DNA of 64,000 bases from contig CM034546.1 of assembly GCA_020055645.1 (NCBI GenBank), positions 65,596,001 to 65,660,000 of the forward strand. The letters run 5' to 3'. The notes beneath the pieces were generated by a model. It saw nothing but the letters and a program-made list of their open reading frames with translations. It did no database searches and had not been told where the DNA came from. The DNA is from Tomocerus qinae. Taxonomy: Eukaryota; Arthropoda; Collembola; Entomobryomorpha; Tomoceridae. The position numbers were made by a program, and so were the translations under genes. Below are positions 1 to 14,661 of this stretch, one piece after another. The first letter of the stretch is position 1. The number at the start of each line of letters is the position of its first letter.

Positions 1-185
1 ATTCGATACAAATCATTATTGTCTTTTACTGCTTTCACTGAGAACCATTTTGATTGGCTACGTGGTAGAGCTGTTAACGCCAAACAACGATATTTCGTCA
101 TTTTGCAAATGACGCGTATGTGGAAAATCTGTATTATACAAAATCGAAAACACGGCACAATTTTCAAATTAAATGTTCTTCAATA
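1..185 (+). CDS. 3' end of an unidentified ORF of a third viral segment (partial)
   Basis: Frame 1 is open from the first base to a TAA at 183-185, giving about 61 codons rich in basic and aromatic residues. It runs toward the L terminus, in the same sense as the 164-residue gene of the other segments and opposite to the capsid gene. I do not recognise the protein. By position it could be the end of a non-structural (replication) protein, which is otherwise missing from the array, but no helicase or nuclease motif is visible in this short tail. A minus-strand frame from an ATG near 141 to the edge is also open for about 33 codons, so the coding strand is not certain. Confidence 0.35.
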
Positions 186-470
186 ATTAATAATTATTTT
201 GTGAAAATATTATATTAAAAGTATGATATTTCACAATAGATTGTAAATATCCAAAACCTAATTTTGTAAATATTTAGAAATATATTAAATGTTTCCTTAC
301 CAAATGTCCAGATAAATAATCCAATCAGAAATAACGCTATGATAAGACATATAATGTCCACCAAAGTATACATTCAATATCCAAAATGTGTAAATTGATG
401 GATTTTAAATGTTTTGAATAATTGTGAAGGATTATTGCGTATTATTATTTCGAAAAATTATTTGAAATAA
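186..470. other. AT-rich non-coding end of the partial viral segment
   Basis: No open frame of note. The sequence is very AT-rich and unlike the corresponding part of the other segments. Similarity to the other copies starts at about 471, so this stretch marks the partial segment as a distinct type, or as host DNA if the left boundary lies here. Confidence 0.4.
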
Positions 471-758
471 TATAATCTCTGGGAAACTTTAGGAGCTATT
501 GACACTTTGAAAGGCTGAGGGCAAATGAGCCTCCAAACCCCAACAACCTCCTTTTATAACCTTCTCCCAACGTTTCTCGGACGTCCTGAGAACCTGTTTG
601 TACCGCCGCTGGAGAAACCCTCGGGATTTTCCGTCAGCAGCGTCCGTCCTTGATAGAGGTCATTGATACACCCCAACGATTCTCCGACGTTCTGAGGCTC
701 CTTGAACAAGGTCAATGATCTTTGTGGGAGGGGGGGCAGCCCCCCAACCAGCTTTTAT
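471..758 (-). promoter_or_regulatory. L terminal region with inward-facing TATA box (partial segment)
   Basis: This block recurs at 2669-2957, 3247-3536, 5449-5738, 7650-7939 and, slightly shorter, 11563-11800. Read on the strand leading away from the palindrome it contains a TATA box (TATAAAA, here about 551-559), the only obvious core promoter in the block. On the capsid segment this promoter faces the capsid gene. On the other segments it points into the non-coding side, so its use there is doubtful. Confidence 0.55.
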
Positions 759-1047
759 AGGCCTCGGGACAAAACAGCTCAACACTGTTGCCTTTTTCTT
801 CCTTTTTCCACATTTCCCTGGGCCTAAAAGCCTCAAAAGAACCCAAACCTTCAACCAGAGCGTCGTCAGCAGCTGTTGGGGGTCGCTGGGGGGCCGCGTG
901 GCCCCCCAGCACGTGAACAACGACCCCCAACAGCTGCTGACGACGCTCTGGTTGAAGGTTTGGGTTCTTTTGAGGCTTTTAGGCCCAGGGAAATGTGGAA
1001 AAAGGAAGAAAAAGGCAACAGTGTTGAGCTGTTTTGTCCCGAGGCCT
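759..1047. repeat. Terminal palindrome 1 (centre 903, orientation A; L on left, R on right)
   Basis: Two arms of about 122 bp, starting AGGCCTCGGGAC on the left and ending with its complement on the right, flank a 45-bp centre at 881-925. The centre holds a GC-rich 11-bp cross-arm stem with a 4-nt tip and an unpaired spacer containing CACGTG. It would fold as a T-shaped hairpin of parvovirus type. In orientation A the GC-rich stem precedes the spacer on the plus strand. Confidence 0.85.
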
Positions 1048-1550
1048 AATAAGGGGGGTGGTGTGGCCACTCCCCTTACGAAAAGAAATGATATGTGTTT
1101 TTATGAAAATGAGGCTAATTTTTCAAAAAACAGCAGTGTCGTATTGTTTGGTGACGTCAGAATGGTTCTGAGGCGGCCATTTTGAATCCGGTGTCAAAAA
1201 TGAGGAATGTTTGTCCGTTAAGAAAATATGACGTTTTGAAATCGTTTGTGTCGAATGGGAGATATTAGTCTTTATTTGCAAAGAGAATTGTGAAGAGAAT
1301 CTTATTTATTTTCTGCCTGAGAACCGGTTTGGACTGCCGCTGCTGCCACTATATACAAGAGTTTTTGCAGAGCGGAGTGTAACAGAGCGGAGTGTGTAGT
1401 ATAAGAAGATCAGTAGCTATTGTGTAATCATTCTCTAGTCGTGCAATGCTCTGTGTGTACCTGTTGACTAATAGCTAGAGATCTATTGCTGGACTTTAAA
1501 AATGTAAATAAACAGAATGCTTTCTCGTTTTACTATGTCAGTGTATTGCC
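1048..1550 (+). promoter_or_regulatory. R terminal region and promoter of the Cys-rich gene
   Basis: This block recurs beside the R side of the other segments (4655-5159, 6856-7360, 9058-9572, and 9862-10204 on the capsid segment). It contains a perfect CRE/ATF site TGACGTCA at 1152-1159, a TATA-like TATATA at about 1350-1355, a tandem 15-bp repeat (AGAGCGGAGTGT core) after it, and an arthropod-type initiator TCAGT at 1410-1414. All face inward toward the two ORFs. Function is inferred from motifs only. Confidence 0.5.
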
Positions 1551-1745
1551 ATGCATTTTAACGGAGAATGCACTGGACGGTATTCTAAGGTGAAAATGGA
1601 GCGGGAATATGTTGATACATTGTTATTTGCAATGTATAAATACAATGCGATGCTTCTATTAGCTAACAATTGCCAAATAAATCTCCAACAACTTTTCCCT
1701 CTATTTCAATATGGTAAGATTGGTATTTATTATCTCATTTGGTAA
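1551..1745 (+). CDS. 64-codon ORF, segment copy 1
   Basis: ATG at 1551, stop at 1743-1745. It is conserved in all four copies of this segment with two residue changes that group copies 1 and 3 against 2 and 4. I do not recognise it. It may be a first exon. A strong donor-like site (ATG/GTAAGA) has its GT at 1714-1715, and a weaker one has its GT at 1742-1743. Only the weaker one would join in frame to an acceptor ending at 1954 just before the start of the next ORF. Independent translation is equally possible. Confidence 0.45.
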   Translation: MHFNGECTGRYSKVKMEREYVDTLLFAMYKYNAMLLLANNCQINLQQLFPLFQYGKIGIYYLIW

Positions 1746-1955
1746 TTATTTCATTGAATATTCACAAAATAAATTGTTATAATTCCAAATAATTATTATG
1801 AGAAACAAATAAGAATTTACCTTGGCACTCCAGTCTCACAGCTTTGGAAATAATTTCATTGATTATATCCAAAATGCCCTTTATAATTATTTAATTAATA
1901 AGTTTAAATAAACAAATAAAATATTCACATTACCTTGTTAATCCAGTCTCACAGT

Positions 1956-2450
1956 ATGGTCGCCGGTCGAGTGTGGACAGAAAGCCGCTGCTTTGCTCGT
2001 CAAAGGATCTGGAATTCTGAATGCGACCGAAAAGTCGACAGGTGGTACTTTGCTCCATGTATGAGCAATCCACAACATTTGTGCGATGGAACTTGCTCAC
2101 GGTATAGTTCCAACCCTTTAAATACTATCAGGGAGCTTCCGTTCTGGGATTCACCCACTAAACAATATTACTATCCTGCTACGCACCCAAACTGCAATTT
2201 GGATAGCGAGAATTTTATATTTTGCTGCGATACCCAATATTTTCCTGCCATTCAAGTAGGAAATGACCCCTGGGAATATCCACGATTTTGGCATATGAAA
2301 GATCGTTATTCATCTGGATATGATTTCATATCCTATGGACATGGGATAAAGTATTCTTCCCAATTTTTCTACCCTACCTCCGAAGACGCCACACGCATGG
2401 CATTGGAAACGTGTATGCAATCTGCATATAAAATTGAATATATTCCTTAA
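1956..2450 (+). CDS. Cys-rich 164-residue protein of unknown family, segment copy 1
   Basis: I place the start at the ATG at 1956, which has a good context (A at -3, G at +4). The frame is open upstream to 1935 without an earlier ATG. The protein is rich in Cys (9), Tyr and Trp. Cysteines fall near residues 12, 23, 35, 43, 47, 80, 90 and 91, including a CxxxC at 43-47 and an adjacent CC pair, which suggests a metal-binding or disulphide-bonded fold. No signal peptide is seen. It ends at TAA 2448-2450, and an AATAAA lies at 2462-2467. The protein is identical in all four copies. By position it takes the place of a non-structural gene. Densoviruses have small accessory NS proteins, but I cannot assign it to one. 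Confidence 0.7.
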   Translation: MVAGRVWTESRCFARQRIWNSECDRKVDRWYFAPCMSNPQHLCDGTCSRYSSNPLNTIRELPFWDSPTKQYYYPATHPNCNLDSENFIFCCDTQYFPAIQVGNDPWEYPRFWHMKDRYSSGYDFISYGHGIKYSSQFFYPTSEDATRMALETCMQSAYKIEYIP

Positions 2451-2957
2451 AAATGTGTAATAATAAAATGTTTGAAATCTAACAAAATTCTAATTATTTC
2501 CCATTGTTAGAAATATCAAGACTATAAGAAAACTGCATAATTTCATAAAATTATATTAAAATAATTTTGATAGAAACCGCTAGCAATAATTAATAAAATT
2601 ACTGCATTAGAAATTCTGAACTAATATAATTATCGGAGCACTTCTTAATATTATCACTTCTTAAATTAATATAATCTCTGGGAAACTTTAGGAGCTATTG
2701 ACACTTTGAAAGGCTGAGGGCAAATGAGCCTCCAAACCCCAACAACCTCCTTTTATAACCTCCTCCCAACGTTTCTCGGACGTCCTGAGAACCTGTTTGT
2801 ACCGCCGCTGGAGAAACCCTCGGGATTTTCCGTCAGCAGCGTCCGTCCTTGATAGAGGTCATTGATACACCCCAACGATTCTCCGACGTTCTGAGGCTCC
2901 TTGAACAAGGTCAATGATCTTTGTGGGAGGGGGGGCAGCCCCCAACCAGCTTTTTAT
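2451..2957. other. 3' tail and L region of segment copy 1
   Basis: An AATAAA polyadenylation signal lies at 2462-2467, followed by an AT-rich stretch to about 2668 and then the L region with its TATA box on the minus strand. No ORF of note. Confidence 0.5.
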
Positions 2958-3246
2958 AGGCCTCGGGACAAAACAGCTCAACACTGTTGCCTTTTTCTTC
3001 CTTTTTCCACATTTCCCTGGGCCTAAAAGCCTCAAAAGAACCCAAACCTTCAACCAGAGCGTCGTCAGCAGCTGTTGGGGGTCGTTGTTCACGTGCTGGG
3101 GGGCCACGCGGCCCCCCAGCGACCCCCAACAGCTGCTGACGACGCTCTGGTTGAAGGTTTGGGTTCTTTTGAGGCTTTTAGGCCCAGGGAAATGTGGAAA
3201 AAGGAAGAAAAAGGCAACAGTGTTGAGCTGTTTTGTCCCGAGGCCT
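2958..3246. repeat. Terminal palindrome 2 (centre 3102, orientation B; L on both sides)
   Basis: Same arms as palindrome 1 but the 45-bp centre (3080-3124) is the reverse complement. L regions lie on both sides, so this is a head-to-head junction, and copies 1 and 2 together form an inverted repeat of about 4.4 kb. Confidence 0.85.
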
Positions 3247-3754
3247 ATAAAAGCTGGTTGGGGGGCTGCCCCCCCTCCCACAAAGATCATTGACCTTGTT
3301 CAAGGAGCCTCAGAACGTCGGAGAATCGTTGGGGTGTATCAATGACCTCTATCAAGGACGGACGCTGCTGACGGAAAATCCCGAGGGTTTCTCCAGCGGC
3401 GGTACAAACAGGTTCTCAGGACGTCCGAGAAACGTTGGGAGGAGGTTATAAAAGGAGGTTGTTGGGGTTTGGAGGCTCATTTGCCCTCAGCCTTTCAAAG
3501 TGTCAATAGCTCCTAAAGTTTCCCAGAGATTATATTAATTTAAGAAGTGATAATATTAAGAAGTGCTCCGATAATTATATTAGTTCAGAATTTCTAATGC
3601 AGTAATTTTATTAATTATTGCTAGCGGTTTCTATCAAAATTATTTTAATATAATTTTATGAAATTATGCAGTTTTCTTATAGTCTTGATATTTCCTAACA
3701 ATGGGAAATAATTAGAATTTTGTTAGATTTCAAACATTTTATTATTACACATTT

Positions 3755-4249
3755 TTAAGGAATATATTCAATTTTATATGCAGATTGCATACACGTTTCC
3801 AATGCCATGCGTGTGGCGTCTTCGGAGGTAGGGTAGAAAAATTGGGAAGAATACTTTATCCCATGTCCATAGGATATGAAATCATATCCAGATGAATAAC
3901 GATCTTTCATATGCCAAAATCGTGGATATTCCCAGGGGTCATTTCCTACTTGAATGGCAGGAAAATATTGGGTATCGCAGCAAAATATAAAATTCTCGCT
4001 ATCCAAATTGCAGTTTGGGTGCGTAGCAGGATAGTAATATTGTTTAGTGGGTGAATCCCAGAACGGAAGCTCCCTGATAGTATTTAAAGGGTTGGAACTA
4101 TACCGTGAGCAAGTTCCATCGCACAAATGTTGTGGATTGCTCATACATGGAGCAAAGTACCACCTGTCGACTTTTCGGTCGCATTCAGAATTCCAGATCC
4201 TTTGACGAGCAAAGCAGCGGCTTTCTGTCCACACTCGACCGGCGACCAT
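3755..4249 (-). CDS. Cys-rich 164-residue protein, segment copy 2
   Basis: Identical in residue sequence to the copy at 1956-2450. The start is the ATG at 4247-4249. It is intact. Confidence 0.7.
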   Translation of the reverse strand: MVAGRVWTESRCFARQRIWNSECDRKVDRWYFAPCMSNPQHLCDGTCSRYSSNPLNTIRELPFWDSPTKQYYYPATHPNCNLDSENFIFCCDTQYFPAIQVGNDPWEYPRFWHMKDRYSSGYDFISYGHGIKYSSQFFYPTSEDATRMALETCMQSAYKIEYIP

Positions 4250-4459
4250 ACTGTGAGACTGGATTAACAAGGTAATGTGAATATTTTATTTGTTTATTTA
4301 AACTTATTAATTAAATAATTATAAAGGGCATTTTGGATATAATCAATGAAATTATTTCCAAAGCTGTGAGACTGGAGTGCCAAGGTAAATTCTTATTTGT
4401 TTCTCATAATAATTATTTGGAATTATAACAATTTATTTTGTGAATATTCAATGAAATAA

Positions 4460-4654
4460 TTACCAAATGAGATAATAAATACCAATCTTACCATATTGAA
4501 ATAGAGGGAAAAGTTGTTGGAGATTTATTTTGCAATTGTTAGCTAATATAAGCATCGCATTGTATTTATACATTGCAAATAACAATGTATCAACATATTC
4601 CCGCTCCATTTTCACCTTAGAATACCGTCCAGTGCATTCTCCGTTAAAATGCAT
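4460..4654 (-). CDS. 64-codon ORF, segment copy 2
   Basis: Same ORF as at 1551, with two substitutions (Leu to Ile and Gln to Lys in the middle of the protein) shared with copy 4. Open and intact. Confidence 0.45.
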   Translation of the reverse strand: MHFNGECTGRYSKVKMEREYVDTLLFAMYKYNAMLILANNCKINLQQLFPLFQYGKIGIYYLIW

Positions 4655-5159
4655 GGCAACACACTGACATAGTAAAACGAGAAAGCATTCTGTTTATTTA
4701 CATTTTTAAAGTCCAGCAATAGATCTCTAGCTATTAGTCAACAGGTACACACAGAGCATTGCACGACTAGAGAATGATTACACAATAGCTACTGATCTTC
4801 TTATACTACACACTCCGCTCTGTTACACTCCGCTCTGCAAAAAACTCTTGTATATAGTGGCAGCAGCGGCAGTCCAAACCGGTTCTCAGGCAGAAAATAA
4901 ATAATATTCTCTTCACAATTCTCTTTGCAAATAAAGACTAATGTCTCCCATTCGACACAAACGATTTCAAAACGTCATATTTTCTTAACGGACAAACATT
5001 CCTCATTTTTGACACCGGATTCAAAATGGCCGCCTCAGAACCATTCTGACGTCACCAAACAATACGACACTGCTGTTTTTTGAAAAATTAGCCTCATTTT
5101 CATAAAAACACATATCATTTCTTTTCGTAAGGGGGAGTGGCCACACCACCCCCCTTATT

Positions 5160-5448
5160 AGGCCTCGGGACAAAACAGCTCAACACTGTTGCCTTTTTCT
5201 TCCTTTTTCCACATTTCCCTGGGCCTAAAAGCCTCAAAAGAACCCAAACCTTCAACCAGAGCGTCGTCAGCAGCTGTTGGGGGTCGTTGTTCACGTGCTG
5301 GGGGGCCACGCGGCCCCCCAGCGACCCCCAACAGCTGCTGACGACGCTCTGGTTGAAGGTTTGGGTTCTTTGAGGCTTTTAGGCCCAGGGAAATGTGGAA
5401 AAAGGAAGAAAAAGGCAACAGTGTTGAGCTGTTTTGTCCCGAGGCCTA
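5160..5448. repeat. Terminal palindrome 3 (centre 5304, orientation B; R left, L right)
   Basis: Head-to-tail junction between copies 2 and 3. Its flanks are the same as at palindrome 4 but its centre (5282-5326) is inverted relative to it, so the two form a matched flip/flop pair. One base is missing in the right arm. Confidence 0.85.
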
Positions 5449-5955
5449 TAAAAGCTGGTTGGGGGGCTGCCCCCCCTCCCACAAAGATCATTGACCTTGT
5501 TCAAGGAGCCTCAGAACGTCGGAGAATCGTTGGGGTATATCAATGACCTCTATCAAGGACGGACGCTGCTGACGGAAAATCCCGAGGGTTTCTCCAGCGG
5601 CGGTACAAACAGGTTCTCAGGACGTCCGAGAAACGTTGGGAGGAGGTTATAAAAGGAGGTTGTTGGGGTTTGGAGGCTCATTTGCCCTCAGCCTTTCAAA
5701 GTGTCAATAGCTCCTAAAGTTTCCCAGAGATTATATTAATTTAAGAAGTGATAATATTAAGAAGTGCTCCGATAATTATATTAGTTCAGAATTTCTAATG
5801 CAGTAATTTTATTAATTATTGCTAGCGGTTTCTATCAAAATTATTTTAATATAATTTTATGAAATTATGCAGTTTTCTTATAGTCTTGATATTTCCTAAC
5901 AATGGGAAATAATTAGAATTTTGTTAGATTTCAAACATTTTATTATTACACATTT

Positions 5956-6450
5956 TTAAGGAATATATTCAATTTTATATGCAGATTGCATACACGTTTC
6001 CAATGCCATGCGTGTGGCGTCTTCGGAGGTAGGGTAGAAAAATTGGGAAGAATACTTTATCCCATGTCCATAGGATATGAAATCATATCCAGATGAATAA
6101 CGATCTTTCATATGCCAAAATCGTGGATATTCCCAGGGGTCATTTCCTACTTGAATGGCAGGAAAATATTGGGTATCGCAGCAAAATATAAAATTCTCGC
6201 TATCCAAATTGCAGTTTGGGTGCGTAGCAGGATAGTAATATTGTTTAGTGGGTGAATCCCAGAACGGAAGCTCCCTGATAGTATTTAAAGGGTTGGAACT
6301 ATACCGTGAGCAAGTTCCATCGCACAAATGTTGTGGATTGCTCATACATGGAGCAAAGTACCACCTGTCGACTTTTCGGTCGCATTCAGAATTCCAGATC
6401 CTTTGACGAGCAAAGCAGCGGCTTTCTGTCCACACTCGACCGGCGACCAT
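5956..6450 (-). CDS. Cys-rich 164-residue protein, segment copy 3
   Basis: Identical in residue sequence to the copy at 1956-2450; start ATG at 6448-6450; intact. Confidence 0.7.
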   Translation of the reverse strand: MVAGRVWTESRCFARQRIWNSECDRKVDRWYFAPCMSNPQHLCDGTCSRYSSNPLNTIRELPFWDSPTKQYYYPATHPNCNLDSENFIFCCDTQYFPAIQVGNDPWEYPRFWHMKDRYSSGYDFISYGHGIKYSSQFFYPTSEDATRMALETCMQSAYKIEYIP

Positions 6451-6660
6451 ACTGTGAGACTGGATTAACAAGGTAATGTGAATATTTTATTTGTTTATTT
6501 AAACTTATTAATTAAATAATTATAAAGGGCATTTTGGATATAATCAATGAAATTATTTCCAAAGCTGTGAGACTGGAGTGCCAAGGTAAATTCTTATTTG
6601 TTTCTCATAATAATTATTTGGAATTATAACAATTTATTTTGTGAATATTCAATGAAATAA

Positions 6661-6855
6661 TTACCAAATGAGATAATAAATACCAATCTTACCATATTGA
6701 AATAGAGGGAAAAGTTGTTGGAGATTTATTTGGCAATTGTTAGCTAATAGAAGCATCGCATTGTATTTATACATTGCAAATAACAATGTATCAACATATT
6801 CCCGCTCCATTTTCACCTTAGAATACCGTCCAGTGCATTCTCCGTTAAAATGCAT
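6661..6855 (-). CDS. 64-codon ORF, segment copy 3
   Basis: Identical to the ORF at 1551-1745. Confidence 0.45.
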   Translation of the reverse strand: MHFNGECTGRYSKVKMEREYVDTLLFAMYKYNAMLLLANNCQINLQQLFPLFQYGKIGIYYLIW

Positions 6856-7360
6856 GGCAATACACTGACATAGTAAAACGAGAAAGCATTCTGTTTATTT
6901 ACATTTTTAAAGTCCAGCAATAGATCTCTAGCTATTAGTCAACAGGTACACACAGAGCATTGCACGACTAGAGAATGATTACACAATAGCTACTGATCTT
7001 CTTATACTACACACTCCGCTCTGTTACACTCCGCTCTGCAAAAAACTCTTGTATATAGTGGCAGCAGCGGCAGTCCAAACCGGTTCTCAGGCAGAAAATA
7101 AATAAGATTCTCTTCACAATTCTCTTTGCAAATAAAGACTAATATCTCCCATTCGACACAAACGATTTCAAAACGTCATATTTTCTTAACGGACAAACAT
7201 TCCTCATTTTTGACACCGGATTCAAAATGGCCGCCTCAGAACCATTCTGACGTCACCAAACAATACGACACTGCTGTTTTTTGAAAAATTAGCCTCATTT
7301 TCATAAAAACACATATCATTTCTTTTCGTAAGGGGGAGTGGCCACACCACCCCCCTTATT

Positions 7361-7649
7361 AGGCCTCGGGACAAAACAGCTCAACACTGTTGCCTTTTTC
7401 TTCCTTTTTCCACATTTCCCTGGGCCTAAAACCCTCAAAAGAACCCAAACCTTCAACCAGAGCGTCGTCAGCAGCTGTTGGGGGTCGCTGGGGGGCCGCG
7501 TGGCCCCCCAGCACGTGAACAACGACCCCCAACAGCTGCTGACGACGCTCTGGTTGAAGGTTTGGGTTCTTTTGAGGCTTTTAGGCCCAGGGAAATGTGG
7601 AAAAAGGAAGAAAAAGGCAACAGTGTTGAGCTGTTTTGTCCCGAGGCCT
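7361..7649. repeat. Terminal palindrome 4 (centre 7505, orientation A; R left, L right)
   Basis: Head-to-tail junction between copies 3 and 4. The centre at 7483-7527 is in the opposite state to palindrome 3 in the same context. One base differs between the arms. Confidence 0.85.
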
Positions 7650-8157
7650 ATAAAAGCTGGTTGGGGGGCTGCCCCCCCTCCCACAAAGATCATTGACCTT
7701 GTTCAAGGAGCCTCAGAACGTCGGAGAATCGTTGGGGTGTATCAATGACCTCTATCAAGGACGGACGCTGCTGACGGAAAATCCCGAGGGTTTCTCCAGC
7801 GGCGGTACAAACAGGTTCTCAGGACGTCCGAGAAACGTTGGGAGGAGGTTATAAAAGGAGGTTGTTGGGGTTTGGAGGCTCATTTGCCCTCAGCCTTTCA
7901 AAGTGTCAATAGCTCCTAAAGTTTCCCAGAGATTATATTAATTTAAGAAGTGATAATATTAAGAAGTGCTCCGATAATTATATTAGTTCAGAATTTCTAA
8001 TGCAGTAATTTTATTAATTATTGCTAGCGGTTTCTATCAAAATTATTTTAATATAATTTTATGAAATTATGCAGTTTTCTTATAGTCTTGATATTTCCTA
8101 ACAATGGGAAATAATTAGAATTTTGTTAGATTTCAAACATTTTATTATTACACATTT

Positions 8158-8652
8158 TTAAGGAATATATTCAATTTTATATGCAGATTGCATACACGTT
8201 TCCAATGCCATGCGTGTGGCGTCTTCGGAGGTAGGGTAGAAAAATTGGGAAGAATACTTTATCCCATGTCCATAGGATATGAAATCATATCCAGATGAAT
8301 AACGATCTTTCATATGCCAAAATCGTGGATATTCCCAGGGGTCATTTCCTACTTGAATGGCAGGAAAATATTGGGTATCGCAGCAAAATATAAAATTCTC
8401 GCTATCCAAATTGCAGTTTGGGTGCGTAGCAGGATAGTAATATTGTTTAGTGGGTGAATCCCAGAACGGAAGCTCCCTGATAGTATTTAAAGGGTTGGAA
8501 CTATACCGTGAGCAAGTTCCATCGCACAAATGTTGTGGATTGCTCATACATGGAGCAAAGTACCACCTGTCGACTTTTCGGTCGCATTCAGAATTCCAGA
8601 TCCTTTGACGAGCAAAGCAGCGGCTTTCTGTCCACACTCGACCGGCGACCAT
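8158..8652 (-). CDS. Cys-rich 164-residue protein, segment copy 4
   Basis: Identical in residue sequence to the other three copies; start ATG at 8650-8652; intact. Confidence 0.7.
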   Translation of the reverse strand: MVAGRVWTESRCFARQRIWNSECDRKVDRWYFAPCMSNPQHLCDGTCSRYSSNPLNTIRELPFWDSPTKQYYYPATHPNCNLDSENFIFCCDTQYFPAIQVGNDPWEYPRFWHMKDRYSSGYDFISYGHGIKYSSQFFYPTSEDATRMALETCMQSAYKIEYIP

Positions 8653-8862
8653 ACTGTGAGACTGGATTAACAAGGTAATGTGAATATTTTATTTGTTTAT
8701 TTAAACTTATTAATTAAATAATTATAAAGGGCATTTTGGATATAATCAATGAAATTATTTCCAAAGCTGTGAGACTGGAGTGCCAAGGTAAATTCTTATT
8801 TGTTTCTCATAATAATTATTTGGAATTATAACAATTTATTTTGTGAATATTCAATGAAATAA

Positions 8863-9057
8863 TTACCAAATGAGATAATAAATACCAATCTTACCATATT
8901 GAAATAGAGGGAAAAGTTGTTGGAGATTTATTTTGCAATTGTTAGCTAATATAAGCATCGCATTGTATTTATACATTGCAAATAACAATGTATCAACATA
9001 TTCCCGCTCCATTTTCACCTTAGAATACCGTCCAGTGCATTCTCCGTTAAAATGCAT
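8863..9057 (-). CDS. 64-codon ORF, segment copy 4
   Basis: Identical to the copy-2 variant; open and intact. Confidence 0.45.
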   Translation of the reverse strand: MHFNGECTGRYSKVKMEREYVDTLLFAMYKYNAMLILANNCKINLQQLFPLFQYGKIGIYYLIW

Positions 9058-9572
9058 GGCAACACACTGACATAGTAAAACGAGAAAGCATTCTGTTTAT
9101 TTACATTTTTAAAGTCCAGCAATAGATCTCTAGCTATTAGTCAACAGGTACACACAGAGCATTGCACGACTAGAGAATGATTACACAATAGCTACTGATC
9201 TTCTTATACTACACACTCCGCTCTGTTACACTCCGCTCTGCAAAAAACTCTTGTATATAGTGGCAGCAGCGGCAGTCCAAACCGGTTCTCAGGCAGAAAA
9301 TAAATAAGAATCTCTTCACAATTCTCTTTGCAAATAAAGACTAATGTCTCCCATTCGACACAAACGATTTCAAAACGTCATATTTTCTTAACGGACAAAC
9401 ATTCCTCATTTTTGACACCGGATTCAAAATGGCCGCCTCAGAACCATTCTGACGTCACCAAACAACAAGACACTGCTGTTTTTTGAAAAACTAGCCAAAA
9501 TTAGCCTCATTTTCATAAAAACACATATCATTTCTTTTCGTAAGGGGGAGTGGCCACACCACCCCCCTTATT

Positions 9573-9861
9573 AGGCCTCGGGACAAAACAGCTCAACACT
9601 GTTGCCTTTTTCTTCCTTTTTCCACATTTCCCTGGGCCTAAAAGCCTCAAAAGAACCCAAACCTTCAACCAGAGCGTCGTCAGCAGCTGTTGGGGGTCGT
9701 TGTTCACGTGCTGGGGGGCCACGCGGCCCCCCAGCGACCCCCAACAGCTGCTGACGACGCTAGGTTGAAGGTTTGGGTTCTTTTGAGGCTTTTAGGCCCA
9801 GGGAAATGTGGAAAAAGGAAGAAAAAGGCAACAGTGTTGAGCTGTTTTGTCCCGAGGCCTA
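9573..9861. repeat. Terminal palindrome 5 (centre 9717, orientation B; R on both sides)
   Basis: Junction of segment copy 4 with the capsid segment, R against R. The right arm has a 2-nt deletion near 9761. Palindromic similarity continues through both R regions to about 9230 and 10204, where the coding parts diverge. Confidence 0.85.
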
Positions 9862-10204
9862 ATAAGGGGGGTGGTGTGGCCACTCCCCCTTACGAAAAGA
9901 AATGATATGTGTTTTTATGAAAATGAGGCTAATTTTGGCTAGTTTTTCAAAAAACAGCAGTGTCTTGTTGTTTGGTGACGTCAGAATGGTTCTGAGGCGG
10001 CCATTTTGAATCCGGTGTCAAAAATGAGGAATGTTTGTCCGTTAAGAAAATATGACGTTTTGAAATCGTTTGTGTCGAATGGGAGACATTAGTCTTTATT
10101 TGCAAAGAGAATTGTGAAGAGAATATTATTTATTTTCTGCCTGAGAACCGGTTTGGACTGCCGCTGCTGCCACTATATACAAGAGTTTTTTGCAGAGCGG
10201 AGTT
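9862..10204 (+). promoter_or_regulatory. R terminal region on capsid segment
   Basis: Same CRE and TATA motifs as at 1048-1550. Identity ends in the first copy of the 15-bp repeat at about 10204, next to a short GT run. Its promoter would fire toward the 3' end of the capsid gene, where no plus-strand gene is visible. Confidence 0.45.
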
Positions 10205-10283
10205 TGTGTGTGTGTATAAAGGAAGTATTATGTACAGAATACATACTTATTATATTTTACAGATTGACAGAGTACAGATCTAT

Positions 10284-11477
10284 TTACATTACTCTATTTA
10301 CCGTAAAGTTTTCGGAATTATTGTGATACATATTTTCTGCATTAAAAACATTAGCAGTGCCTTTGCTGTCACAATGGTCATGAGAAACGGCAATGGTGAT
10401 AGCTGTTTCGAACATTAGATCAACACACACTTTAACTTCACTAGTGAATAAATCCATTAGATCACATACTTTAATGTATGCAGGGGCATAGCTGGGTGGA
10501 TCCATAACAGCTTCAAGTTGTCGTGAATGATACCAGCGATTAGCATTTGTTCCAGGATCTGGTCCCAATCGATAATTATCAACGTTTATGGTGTTTAAAT
10601 TCTTAAATGGCGACACATCTGGTTTCCATTCTCCAGGAGTATCGCTTGTTTCATGTAATCCAGATCCTAGGTTAACCCATCCAGCAAAGAATTGTGGGGC
10701 ATTCTGAAATGGCTTTTCTAGATTTGTTATTATAGAATAACATCTTCCAGGTAAGGTAGCACCAGCTTCCCTCAATCGGCTGCTTTGGAATTCAATTCTG
10801 GGAAGAAAAGTTGGATAGCCTTTTGAGTTCATAATTTGGCTCATTTCTTTTTGATTGCTGTTATCAACAGCACTTCCGTTGTTCCAATATCTTGCTCTGT
10901 AACCAGGTAGCAATCTGTTATTACGGATAAATCCCAAAGACACATTCATTGGGCCCCCAATAGTTCTAAAGTCGACATCAGTATTTTCCATCACAGTAAT
11001 GTTGGTTTTCATCATTTTCCAGCTCACATTAAGGATTTTAAATGCTGAGAATGCCTTCAGTATATTTCTTTCAGCAGAATCCGTGTAGAATTGCAAAGCA
11101 TTATCAGGAATTTCAAACCAATTTGAGTCAGATTTGTAATATCTTGGTGCTGCACTGCCTACTGTTGTACCAGCAACCCAGCCGTTGTCCTTGCAGCTTT
11201 TTAATCGCCAATAAGATCGGGATTTGAAATGTAGAGTGGTATTTAACATTGGCAGTGGTCTTAAAATAGTAGACACAACCGAAACATTAAAACCATTCAG
11301 ATTAGTTCCACCGCCTTTCCCTTTTGCATCGCGTTTAGTAACTTTGGTATCTTCAGGTCTTTCTTCTGTAGTGGGTGGTTTGGTTGTATTATCCTCAGCA
11401 GCATCGATTTCATCAAAAGTCCGCTTCAATTGTGGGTATCTTCGTCCATTAACCTCAGCAAGCGACTCAGAATCCAT
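10284..11477 (-). CDS. Parvovirus-type capsid protein (VP), 397 residues
   Basis: Intact ORF, ATG at 11475-11477, stop at 10284-10286. The first 50 or so residues are polar and charged. A Lys/Gly-rich stretch (GKGGG near residue 55) follows, matching the glycine-rich segment that precedes the jelly-roll core in parvovirus capsid proteins and lines the five-fold channel. The rest has the Asn/Pro/Trp-rich character of a jelly-roll capsid with long loops. No phospholipase A2 domain is present, and the length fits the short capsid proteins of Hamaparvovirinae-like viruses better than ambidensoviruses. The TATA box in the L region (about 11593-11600) lies about 120 bp upstream. The assignment rests on composition, glycine motif and the hairpin context, not on an alignment. 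No breaks are visible. Confidence 0.65.
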   Translation of the reverse strand: MDSESLAEVNGRRYPQLKRTFDEIDAAEDNTTKPPTTEERPEDTKVTKRDAKGKGGGTNLNGFNVSVVSTILRPLPMLNTTLHFKSRSYWRLKSCKDNGWVAGTTVGSAAPRYYKSDSNWFEIPDNALQFYTDSAERNILKAFSAFKILNVSWKMMKTNITVMENTDVDFRTIGGPMNVSLGFIRNNRLLPGYRARYWNNGSAVDNSNQKEMSQIMNSKGYPTFLPRIEFQSSRLREAGATLPGRCYSIITNLEKPFQNAPQFFAGWVNLGSGLHETSDTPGEWKPDVSPFKNLNTINVDNYRLGPDPGTNANRWYHSRQLEAVMDPPSYAPAYIKVCDLMDLFTSEVKVCVDLMFETAITIAVSHDHCDSKGTANVFNAENMYHNNSENFTVNRVM

Positions 11478-11562
11478 GATGATAATTAATTTCCAAAATT
11501 ATTAAATACTTGCAATAATTTCTGAAAATATCAATACTTGTTGTCTCTGCGAATACCAGACA

Positions 11563-11800
11563 GCAAATGAGCCTCCAAACCCCAACAACCTCCTTTTATA
11601 ACCTTCTCCCAACGTTTCTCGGACGTCCTGAGAACCTGTTTGTACCGCCGCTGGAGAAACCCTCGGGATTTTCCGTCAGCAGCGTCCGTCCTTGATAGAG
11701 GTCATTGATACACCCCAACGATTCTCCGACGTTCTGAGGCTCCTTGAACAAGGTCAATGATCTTTGTGGGAGGGGGGGCAGCCCCCCAACCAGCTTTTAT
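11563..11800 (-). promoter_or_regulatory. L terminal region, promoter of the capsid gene
   Basis: A TATA box on the minus strand (about 11593-11600) is followed by the shared sequence to 11563, where the segment-specific leader of the capsid gene begins. Shared with all other L regions except for the innermost 50 bp or so. Confidence 0.55.
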
Positions 11801-11993
11801 AGGCCTCGGGACAAAACAGCTCAACACTGTTGCCTTTTTCTTCCTTTTTCCACATTTCCCTGGGCCTAAAAGCCTCAAAAGAACCCAAACCTTCAACCAG
11901 AGCGTCGTCAGCAGCTGTTGGGGGTCGCTGGGGGGCCGCGTGGCCCCCCAGCACGTGAACAACGACCCCCAACAGCTGCTGACGACGCTCTGG
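11801..11993. repeat. Terminal palindrome 6, truncated at the host junction (centre 11945, orientation A)
   Basis: The left arm and the whole centre (11923-11967) are present, but only about 26 bp of the right arm remain before host ORC4 sequence starts at 11994. Integration breakpoints inside the terminal hairpin are typical of parvovirus DNA. Confidence 0.8.
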
Positions 11994-14661
11994 ATAGTAT
12001 TTGGCCCACCAGGGTGTGGCAAAACCACTGTAAGTTTCGTTACAATTTACTGTAAATTATTTTGCATTGTAAGATTAAGTTTTTGTTTAATTAGGTTTAT
12101 ATGACCTTGTTCCTAGCTGAAAATATTTTTTCATATATTGGCTGAATATAATTTAGTATTATAATGTACAATAAATGCTATATGATCTAACTTTTGTTAT
12201 TTGTAGCTAATTGAAGGAGTCGTTGCTAATCTTCATGAACAACATGAGGAGAAATTTTTTAATGGATGTGAAGTCGTGCGCTTAAATGGGTACATTTGTT
12301 CAACTTGGAAAAAGTCAGTACGAGAGATTTGCCATCAGCTAAAAGTAAAATCAATTTTGAAGGAAGATAACAATGACGGTGGAAGTGGTGAGTCAATTTG
12401 CAAAAGTGATGGTATGTTGCAGGAAATTCGTTCAGACCGCACATATGCAAATTGTAAATTGTCTACGATATTTGTGTTTTCAAAAACTAAAACTTCTCTT
12501 TTGAAAGAGCCCCGCGTAATTTAAATCCATCTAATGTACATGAAAGTACATTCGACATCCAAAAAGTTGTTTAGGCTACGTTTGTTAAAAATCAAAAATT
12601 GGTTTTTGAAACCACAATTATTCTAGGCATTTTGCATAATAGTATGTCTTGTATGTACATATTTCGTTTAAGTTTTATATTTAAAAAATTATTACATGAA
12701 TTTTATATGTTATTTTGGATGTATTACATTTGACGCTATTATATATTATATGGCTCCTGGTTTGTAGACGACCTTGGAAATGTATTTATTTTGTTGAAAG
12801 AAAGTTTTTATAAACTTAAAAAAGCTGTGGTTTTTATATTGGACAACTTGGAGTTATTTGTCGACGGGAATCAAATTTTGTTGTACAATTTATTCGACCT
12901 ATCATCTATAAACAGCACAATTCACATTTGTGTAATTGGTTTAACATGTCGCGTGGACGTTCTTGAGTTGTTTGAAAAACGAGTGAAGTCCAGATTTTCT
13001 CACCGTCAAATAAACCTCGTCAATCATTTTGATACTTTTGAGAACTACAGCCTTTGTGCTAAGAACTTACTGGAACACCCAAAGGTAAATTTTTATTAAC
13101 ATTTTTATAAACTTCTTTTTGAGATGACAAATTGTATTCAAATAAAATAACAAAATTGAAATAGGACGGAGCTTGGAATTTGGATGTACTGAAGATCTTT
13201 GAGTCTGATAAAGTAAAAAAACTGCTTAAAATGATGTATTTTAACAACAAATCTCTTGCAGATCTGGTAACATATCTGGTAAGATTCCACATTACTGAAT
13301 CCGCTTAAAAAAATTAAATATCTTAATTACCCTTACATAAAGTAGTCGACGAAAGTCATCAGCATCGGAGTTGTTTCAACTTCTATTCTAGATGTGTGTG
13401 TTAGGGGGAGAGCACAGCATCTACTATAGTAGTAGAGCTTTGCTACCGCTCAAGCCTGGGGTGGCTTACTTGCAGTGACTCCCGGACAACTTTACTGAGT
13501 GTACAGACTTACACGAAGAGACTTTGGTGAGGGGTACTGAACCATTATGTGGTACAGCCCTACACAGTCCCGTACTCTACCTATCTGTGCTTAGGTGGCA
13601 AGGTTAGGTGAGCTGACCACATTAGGTATGACAGTCATCGCAACCTCCCGCATCCCTTCGCATGTGCTCCTCAGTCCAGTATATCACTAGGTAAACTCGT
13701 AGTGTACACCTAACCAAGAGAGCAATCTGCACACTGCAGACAGGGTAAGGAAAGATAGTCATATTGTCACCAAGATAGGCAAATCAATGCTAATAACGAA
13801 TATACGGCAAAGATAGCTTCTCCCAATTCCAGACTAACTAACACACAACCTGAGGCGCTCTTAGGATTCGAACCCAAGATTGCAGACAGCCAGCCAGGTT
13901 TTTACACCATTAGACCGTCCTGTACGCCTATTCTAGATACTCAAACTGTCTCAAACTACTTGTTATCCTGTTAATTACGATTTGCAAAATTGATTTTTAA
14001 AAAAACTTGATAAGTTCTGTGCATTTATATAAAAAAGAATTTAACATTATTTTAGTATACGGTGCTACTGGTGACTGACCGGAATCTGAAAGTTGCAGAC
14101 TTCCAAACGGCATTTAAAAATATGTTTCCGCAGTCTTCTAAAGTTCAAATGGTATTAGATTTAGCTGTCACCGACCTACTTCCTGTAAGTTGTTTTCAAA
14201 AGTAGTAATGCAATTTTAAATTGTTACCATTTTCATAATTTTATTATTTCTTTCTTTGGATTTCAGTTGATTGCCATATATAAAAATATACAAAGTAACA
14301 CACAACGGGCAATGAAGCCTAAAGATTTATACAGCATTGTAGCCAAAATATCTTTACGATTTGGACTAAAACGAAAGGATTTTATGAACTCAGTGTCAAG
14401 AATCCATGTAAATGCCGTTATAAAAATTATGTTTAACAATTATTTACTTATTTGATTCCGAATTGATAATTAATGATATTTTGGTTTTTGATCACTATGT
14501 TACAGGAATTGAAACTGATAGAAACCATTGAAAGTACCCGAAGAGTGGGCGAAATTATTGACTTTGATACGAATTTCAAGACGAACATAAGCTATTTGGA
14601 ATTCAGAGAGATATGGTCTACTTACCCTAATCTTCCGACAGACTATTTGGAAATTTTGTAA
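11994..14661 (+). CDS. ORC4: Origin recognition complex subunit 4, 5'-truncated by viral junction
   Basis: ORC4 is an AAA+ subunit of the origin recognition complex, which binds replication origins in the nucleus and loads MCM helicase. Exons: 11994-12029, 12207-12387, 12768-13084, 13166-13279, 14056-14184, 14267-14407 and 14506-14661. All junctions are GT-AG and keep frame, giving 357 residues. Walker A (GPPGCGKT) is in the first visible exon. A Walker B-like FILDNLELF and the highly ORC4-specific GLTCRVDVLE...EKRVKSRFSHRQ stretch lie in exon 3. The winged-helix C-terminus ends at a natural stop. Compared with about 436 residues in human ORC4, only the 65 or so residues before Walker A are missing. 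They must lie left of the viral array or be lost. The exon abuts the viral palindrome directly. Other parts look fully functional. Confidence 0.88.
13340..13935 (-). repeat. tRNA-derived SINE-like insertion in ORC4 intron
   Basis: On the minus strand, 13922-13863 contains an A-box-like GGTCTAATGGTGTAA and a B box GGTTCGAATCC (13864-13873 reversed), the internal RNA polymerase III promoter of tRNA-derived SINEs. The GC content of this stretch is clearly above that of the intron around it. The ends are not sharp to me, and no target duplication was identified. Confidence 0.5.

Follow-up and report, generated by a model that had tools for sequence, protein, structure and literature searches.

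What produced the run of near-equal units, each bordered by the same palindrome and carrying one of a few different genes, that lies in the window, a 64,000-nt stretch of the collembolan Tomocerus qinae (C1:65596001-65660000 of the 334-Mb assembly)? The answer favoured here, at a probability of about 0.6, is that this array is a germline-integrated concatemer of at least three segments of a multipartite parvovirus-like virus. The array exceeds the window. A search of the genome with the hairpin arms placed its full extent at C1:65588075-65607993 (19.9 kb), the left end being 7.9 kb outside the window. Ten hairpin joints delimit nine units which measure, centre to centre and from left to right, 2212, 2190, 2208, 2162, 2199, 2202, 2201, 2212 and 2228 bp. 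Seven units encode a Cys-rich protein, one a putative capsid protein (VP), and the 2162-bp unit, mostly left of the window, is of a third kind.

Joint centres in the window are at 903, 3102, 5304, 7505, 9717 and 11945. The window opens with the R-side end of the third-kind unit (1..903, + strand), the remainder of which is found at ~6742-8905 of L022, to the left; its open reading frame (ORF) reads from R to L. Cys-rich unit 1 (903..3102, + strand, 2199 bp) runs from L to R, and its Cys-rich ORF (1956..2450, + strand) encodes 164 aa with 9 Cys residues. Units 2 (3102..5304, 2202 bp), 3 (5304..7505, 2201 bp) and 4 (7505..9717, 2212 bp) are on the - strand and run from R to L, with Cys-rich ORFs at 3755-4249, 5956-6450 and 8158-8652, respectively; L/R joints lie on either side of unit 3. 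The capsid unit (9717..11945, + strand, 2228 bp) runs from L to R, and the putative VP ORF (10284..11477, - strand, 397 aa) is read from R to L. An earlier note, made from the sequence of the window, had described four Cys-rich units and one capsid unit spanning 903..11945, and both lengths and coordinates proved exact. Its total of five units is right for the window, and is superseded by the nine units of an array which extends to the left and includes a third kind. The seven Cys-rich units are almost the same sequence, differing from unit 1 by 0-0.3% in a 1144-nt core, which agrees with a young insertion; the Cys-rich ORF is identical in all four units of the window.

The different kinds of unit are alike at their ends. 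Measured from the joint centre, and thus with half a hairpin included, the sequence common to capsid and third units amounts to 485 nt at L and 384 nt at R, that common to capsid and Cys-rich units to ~470 and ~370 nt, respectively. Between these shared ends a same-strand comparison of the capsid with the Cys-rich unit gave no match at E 1e-4, and the claim that the two have only their termini in common is thereby borne out. Cys-rich and third units remain together on the L side up to ~740 nt from the centre, and a further matching block reaches ~920. The third unit has its L third in common with the Cys-rich units, and a different interior. Units are of nearly the same length despite main ORFs which range from 351 to 1194 nt, and this suggests a length limit, as had been supposed from the five units of the window. 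The figure of 2.2 kb is a centre-to-centre one, and a monomer that retained both of its hairpins in full would be of ~2.5 kb.

Each joint is a palindrome with an asymmetric centre. For 131-139 nt the arms are the same whether the end is L or R; end-specific sequence follows, in which a TATA-like box is visible by eye on the L as well as on the R side. Folded as DNA, the 304 nt of the R/R joint form a T-shaped structure with one 12-bp ear at -196 kcal/mol, and the z score of the hairpin fold against 100 shuffles is about -40. Judged by structure only, the terminal hairpins should be able to prime rolling-hairpin replication, which is the structural criterion of Parvoviridae. The asymmetric loop has one orientation in four of the ten joints and the opposite one in the other six. 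The presence of both orientations is the mark of hairpin transfer, of which the joints are a fossil record. Within the window, orientation A is found in the R/L joint at 750..1048 (centre 903) and in the right outer hairpin at 11792..11993, orientation B in the R/R joint at 2952..3255, the one folded as a T, and in the L/L joint at 9572..9861 (centre 9717). Read from left to right, the joints are host/R, L/L, R/R, L/L, R/L, R/R, L/R, L/R, L/L and R/host, so that the eight inner ones comprise three L/L, two R/R, and three L/R or R/L. Joints of the L/L and R/R type are expected from rolling-hairpin replication, L/R joints require recombination or end joining as well. Integrants and concatemers of adeno-associated virus (AAV) show the same set of features, namely a T-shaped hairpin, two loop orientations, mixed joints and truncated ends at insertion sites; unlike the array, AAV is monopartite, and has rep together with cap.

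In this assembly the array sits within host DNA. The left joint directly follows position 6075 of L021, and on the right the second arm of the outer hairpin ends abruptly at 11993, where host sequence begins. Once joined, the host flanks are in frame (...NGLQDS/IVFGPPGCGKT...), an outcome with a chance of 1/3 on its own. The interrupted gene is one which we take to be ORC4, a name derived from reading its exons and from no database search. It is broken within a coding exon, which starts at 5899-6075 of L021 and resumes across the array at 11994..12029 (+ strand), the ORC4-like sequence continuing to 13280. A search of the assembly with the left part of this exon gave a single match, and the insertion should therefore break the gene in the assembled haplotype, which should lack a working copy. 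The insertion is probably young, and perhaps heterozygous.

Copies of the units reside elsewhere in the genome, and are mostly partial. Searches were made with the hairpin, the L and the R regions, and only the best candidates (17, 14 and 13, respectively) were scored, so that all counts are lower bounds. At least six further loci were found. L024 hosts a unit of the third kind, 97% identical in most of the interior, and L026 another, 79-93% identical depending on the region. L025 carries two partial Cys-rich units over an L/R joint (97% identity across 984 core nt), L027 the R half of a capsid unit (98%), and L023 the L end of a capsid unit (~91%). The most diverged copy found, at L141 (4329-4859; C1:26855328-26855858), includes only the L end and the 3' end of the capsid gene, at 72% identity. 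In total, at least 16 unit copies, of which five or more are partial, occur at seven loci: nine Cys-rich, three third-kind and four capsid units. The layout of the third unit recurs at three loci (the array, L024 and L026). In L141 the spacer from the L region to the capsid stop codon is identical at 71 of 93 positions and free of gaps, and the capsid 3' end at 73 of 99 aligned positions, of 115. Conservation of both spacer and VP 3' end implies that the association of the L end with the capsid gene is old, and not the product of a fresh deletion.

In a multiple alignment of the hairpin arms of these loci with the array, changes found in both arms and changes found in one arm number 6 and 5 in L023, 8 and 21 in L026, 2 and 5 in L025, and 2 and 1 in L024. 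A pairwise comparison (2/12, 6/24, 2/5 and 2/1 in the same order) had misplaced gaps, and was superseded by these figures. The same change in both arms is expected if one arm is copied from the other, and suggests descent from viruses in which the arms were still being copied from one another.

Between array and L025 the Cys-rich ORF differs by 9 synonymous and no non-synonymous changes (393 nt; 77 + 316 sites), all nine at codon position 3. Between array and L027 the VP ORF differs by 8 synonymous and 5 non-synonymous changes (575 nt; 127 + 446 sites). As far as substitution patterns can tell, two of the three kinds of unit, Cys-rich and VP, appear to have evolved as coding segments from one insertion to another. 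The third ORF was initially read as a conserved protein, a reading dropped because substitution counts gave no sign of constraint; the remaining reading frames of the third unit exhibit no clear constraint either. The ORF would be an NS-side accessory ORF or the remnant of one, and the segment may be a working or a degenerate one. No function is assigned to the Cys-rich protein, which retrieved only weak rows (conglutin at E 0.11 and 0.82 and pleckstrin at 0.62 in PDB, DUF6322 at 0.23 in Pfam). In the third unit, an overlapping ORF on the + strand has a similarly weak match, DUF454 at 0.28.

A tie to parvoviruses comes from a second element in the same genome. L140 (C1:33613500-33623400) holds the only Parvo_NS1 match among the 12 genome candidates scored. 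The element itself (3227-7665; C1:33616726-33621164) is ambisense, 4439 bp long, and bordered by 179-nt perfectly matching inverted repeats, with NS-side ORFs on the + strand and a 617-aa ORF on the - strand in the position of the capsid gene. Searches with its NS1 ORF gave Parvo_NS1 at 4e-20, Rep40/Rep68 structures at ~1e-11, and no relative in IMG/VR. The array VP aligns to the 617-aa ORF over 107 positions at 7e-10 in pairwise comparison, scores 48.1 bits where 500 shuffles reached at most 25.8, and retrieves it at 1.1e-4 in a whole-genome search. The third ORF matches an NS-side ORF of L140 with 40.0 bits (500-shuffle maximum 26.6); the match is spread over two frames, perhaps on account of a splice or a frameshift. 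L140 thus resembles the array in having a related ORF in the VP position, a relative of the third ORF and inverted terminal repeats, and differs from it in being monopartite and ambisense, in its length, in the size of its repeats and in having an NS1 ORF of its own. At the DNA level array and L140, ends included, share no significant similarity (best E 1.8). The 617-aa ORF has no match in Pfam and no relatives in the databases (6662 candidates up to E 1), and two weak PDB rows only (E 0.92 and 0.99). The array virus is parvovirus-like by its capsid ORF, its NS-side ORF and its ends. ORFs flanking L140 resemble, by eye, reverse transcriptase.

These data can be accommodated in the following scenario. 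Each segment would be a linear molecule of ~2.2 kb, centre to centre, with the same T-shaped hairpin of ~300 nt at both ends. One segment would carry the capsid gene, one the Cys-rich protein, and a third the accessory ORF of the NS side, intact or as a remnant, and an NS1 segment, if any, would have been either not integrated or not found. NS1 would act on the common hairpin to sustain rolling-hairpin replication, one segment would be packaged per particle under a length limit imposed by the capsid, and a concatemer would have been end-joined into a break in the exon. We infer, in this way, a complete multipartite virus. More specifically, a lineage with at least four segments of ~2.2 kb (~2.5 kb with full hairpins), packaged apart, with NS1 on a segment which did not integrate, is a tentative proposal to which slightly less than even odds are given.

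Several observations weigh against the segment hypothesis. No NS1 helicase was found in the 16 unit copies of the seven loci, five or more of which are partial, and no NS1-bearing unit with the ends of the array was found among the scored genome matches, which include only Cys-rich, third and VP kinds. No free molecule was found in IMG/VR, a weak test for such viruses, and all copies found are endogenous. VP has no match in Pfam or PDB sequences up to E 10, and none in IMG/VR, phage records and a set of 5.8 billion proteins (1857 candidates up to E 10); two weak matches in PHROGs (E 0.079 and 0.091) were not used. A single-sequence AlphaFold model of VP was unusable (mean predicted local distance difference test score, pLDDT, 31.5), and any jelly-roll in VP is therefore putative. 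In the 89-nt VP piece of L023, 3 synonymous and 3 non-synonymous changes were counted. The third ORF, in which purifying selection is not apparent, has 1 synonymous and 7 non-synonymous changes against L024, 1.5 and 11.5 against L026. Little of the hairpin arm survives in L141 (40 identical of 75 aligned positions, of 131), and in L026 most arm changes are one-armed (21/29), which fits decay after insertion. The proposal of a multipartite parvovirus put forward in the earlier note is consequently upheld in part: shared hairpins, three kinds of unit, coding constraint, recurring arrangements and the kinship of VP are in its favour, and an NS1 unit and a free molecule are missing. The comparison with viral profiles suggested there returned no convincing match for either capsid or Cys-rich protein, and the relative of VP came from L140 instead. 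As to NS1, it may reside on a segment that failed to integrate or that is excluded from the germline, or it may be supplied by a helper. Among the 115 parvovirus-like sequences of a gall aphid genome, mainly VP1, no non-structural genes were detected (PMC10759679), and such endogenous copies provide a precedent for the missing NS genes.

The possibility of a helper leads to the alternative which survives best, according to which the units are satellites dependent on the NS1 of a helper parvovirus, and not segments of one genome. The lack of NS1 in 16 of 16 copies, the apparently unconstrained third ORF and the residence of NS1-bearing L140 in the same genome are all in keeping with it. A capsid gene of its own, constrained as the 8:5 ratio of synonymous to non-synonymous changes denotes, is hardly expected of a satellite, however, and L140, having no significant DNA similarity to the ends of the array, is not an obvious helper. 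Satellites are therefore regarded as an unlikely, though not negligible, explanation.

Clearly less probable is the hypothesis that the units are defective genomes, formed by internal deletion from one monopartite parvovirus of 4-6 kb. Parvovirus defective genomes do retain their ends, and the cousin L140 has NS1 and VP on one 4.4-kb genome. The discovery of a single 4-6 kb genome with both genes had been named in the earlier note as the result which would undo the multipartite proposal; L140 has that layout, but is distant, lacks significant DNA similarity to the array, and the units do not seem to be simple deletions of anything like it. Descent from one parent requires colinearity from each end inward. 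Near R the capsid unit diverges at Rsub position 229, in the array as well as in L027, and Cys-rich and third units stay together for ~59 nt past that point before parting. On the L side all three kinds are together for ~470-485 nt, Cys-rich and third units for ~740. To obtain this nest at the two ends from one linear parent, rearrangement beyond simple deletion would be needed. Third and VP ORFs have the same direction in the array, and their two relatives are convergent in L140, so the relative orientation is opposite. Moreover, the joint of L with VP is old, as L141 indicates, and two of the ORFs are under constraint. Nested sharing, old arrangements and coding constraint together make stable segments a better reading than deletions.

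That the units represent a transposable element whose ends are palindromic, as their multiple copies at several loci and inverted ends might indicate, is very improbable. No target-site duplication was seen at the two ends of the array, and the array and other loci break off at differing points of the hairpin. The four unit ORFs scanned had no Pfam match above the cut-off, and VP is kin to the ORF in the capsid position of L140. Least probable of all is that the array is an assembly artefact from co-sequenced viral DNA, because, although palindromes are hard to assemble and the interruption of a single-copy exon should be harmful, the joined host flanks are in frame (1/3 by chance) and the diverged or truncated copies at six other loci attest to the true integration of such segments.

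If the units are segments of a divided genome, as favoured here, they have relatives in the literature. Acheta domesticus segmented densovirus (AdSDV) is bipartite, its linear segments measuring 3316 and 3332 nt. Like the array, it has near-equal segments which bear different genes between common ends, T-shaped hairpins that are identical from segment to segment at corresponding termini, and a capsid ORF of similar size (378 aa, 397 aa here; PMC10267136). Its hairpins, of 208 and 220 nt, are not inverted terminal repeats, whereas the array has the same hairpin at both ends; one AdSDV segment encodes NS1/NS2 and the vp segment includes a PLA2 ORF, whereas the array has a Cys-rich gene and no NS1 that could be found; and the two AdSDV segments contrast with three kinds of 2.2-kb unit (PMC10267136). 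The bidna-like Vesanto virus of Drosophila has small segments, more than two in number, whose inverted terminal repeats are in many cases alike from one segment to another, and some segments may be optional or satellite (PMC8363768). Its segments, up to twelve, are larger (3.3-5.8 kb) than the array units, some carry PolB homologues, and the available part of that report mentions no flip/flop hairpin (PMC8363768).

Divided hairpin-ended DNA viruses are thus already known, and the expectation that a virus with 2.2-kb segments would be new or very rare is to be tempered by these published multipartite relatives (PMC10267136, PMC8363768), with larger segments; an architecture of three kinds of 2.2-kb segment would be new. 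The literature searched (titles and abstract openings, few subscription papers) holds no parvovirus with more than two segments, or with segments of 2.2 kb, and the segments proposed here would be smaller and more numerous than those of the hairpin-ended parvoviruses it describes. Genome division in linear single-stranded DNA viruses of animals rests on very few cases, and the array would add a third architecture, with at least three near-equal small segments sharing one hairpin. With the cousin L140 in the same genome, the route from a monopartite ambisense to a multipartite parvovirus would become addressable, and the evolution of segments is traceable because the chromosome keeps several of them at differing divergence.

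The region upstream of the Cys-rich ORF in unit 1 has features of its own. A further ORF (window 1551-1711) ends in a splice-donor-like GTAAG, and is possibly a first exon; it exhibits 4 changes, equally divided between codon positions 1 and 3, and the matching frame of the third unit stops early, as judged by eye. Just before the Cys-rich ORF lies a tandem duplication of ~105 bp (window 1738-1841 and 1843-1954), the two copies of which are 71% alike and have splice-acceptor-like ends. The duplication is also present in the other Cys-rich units matched.

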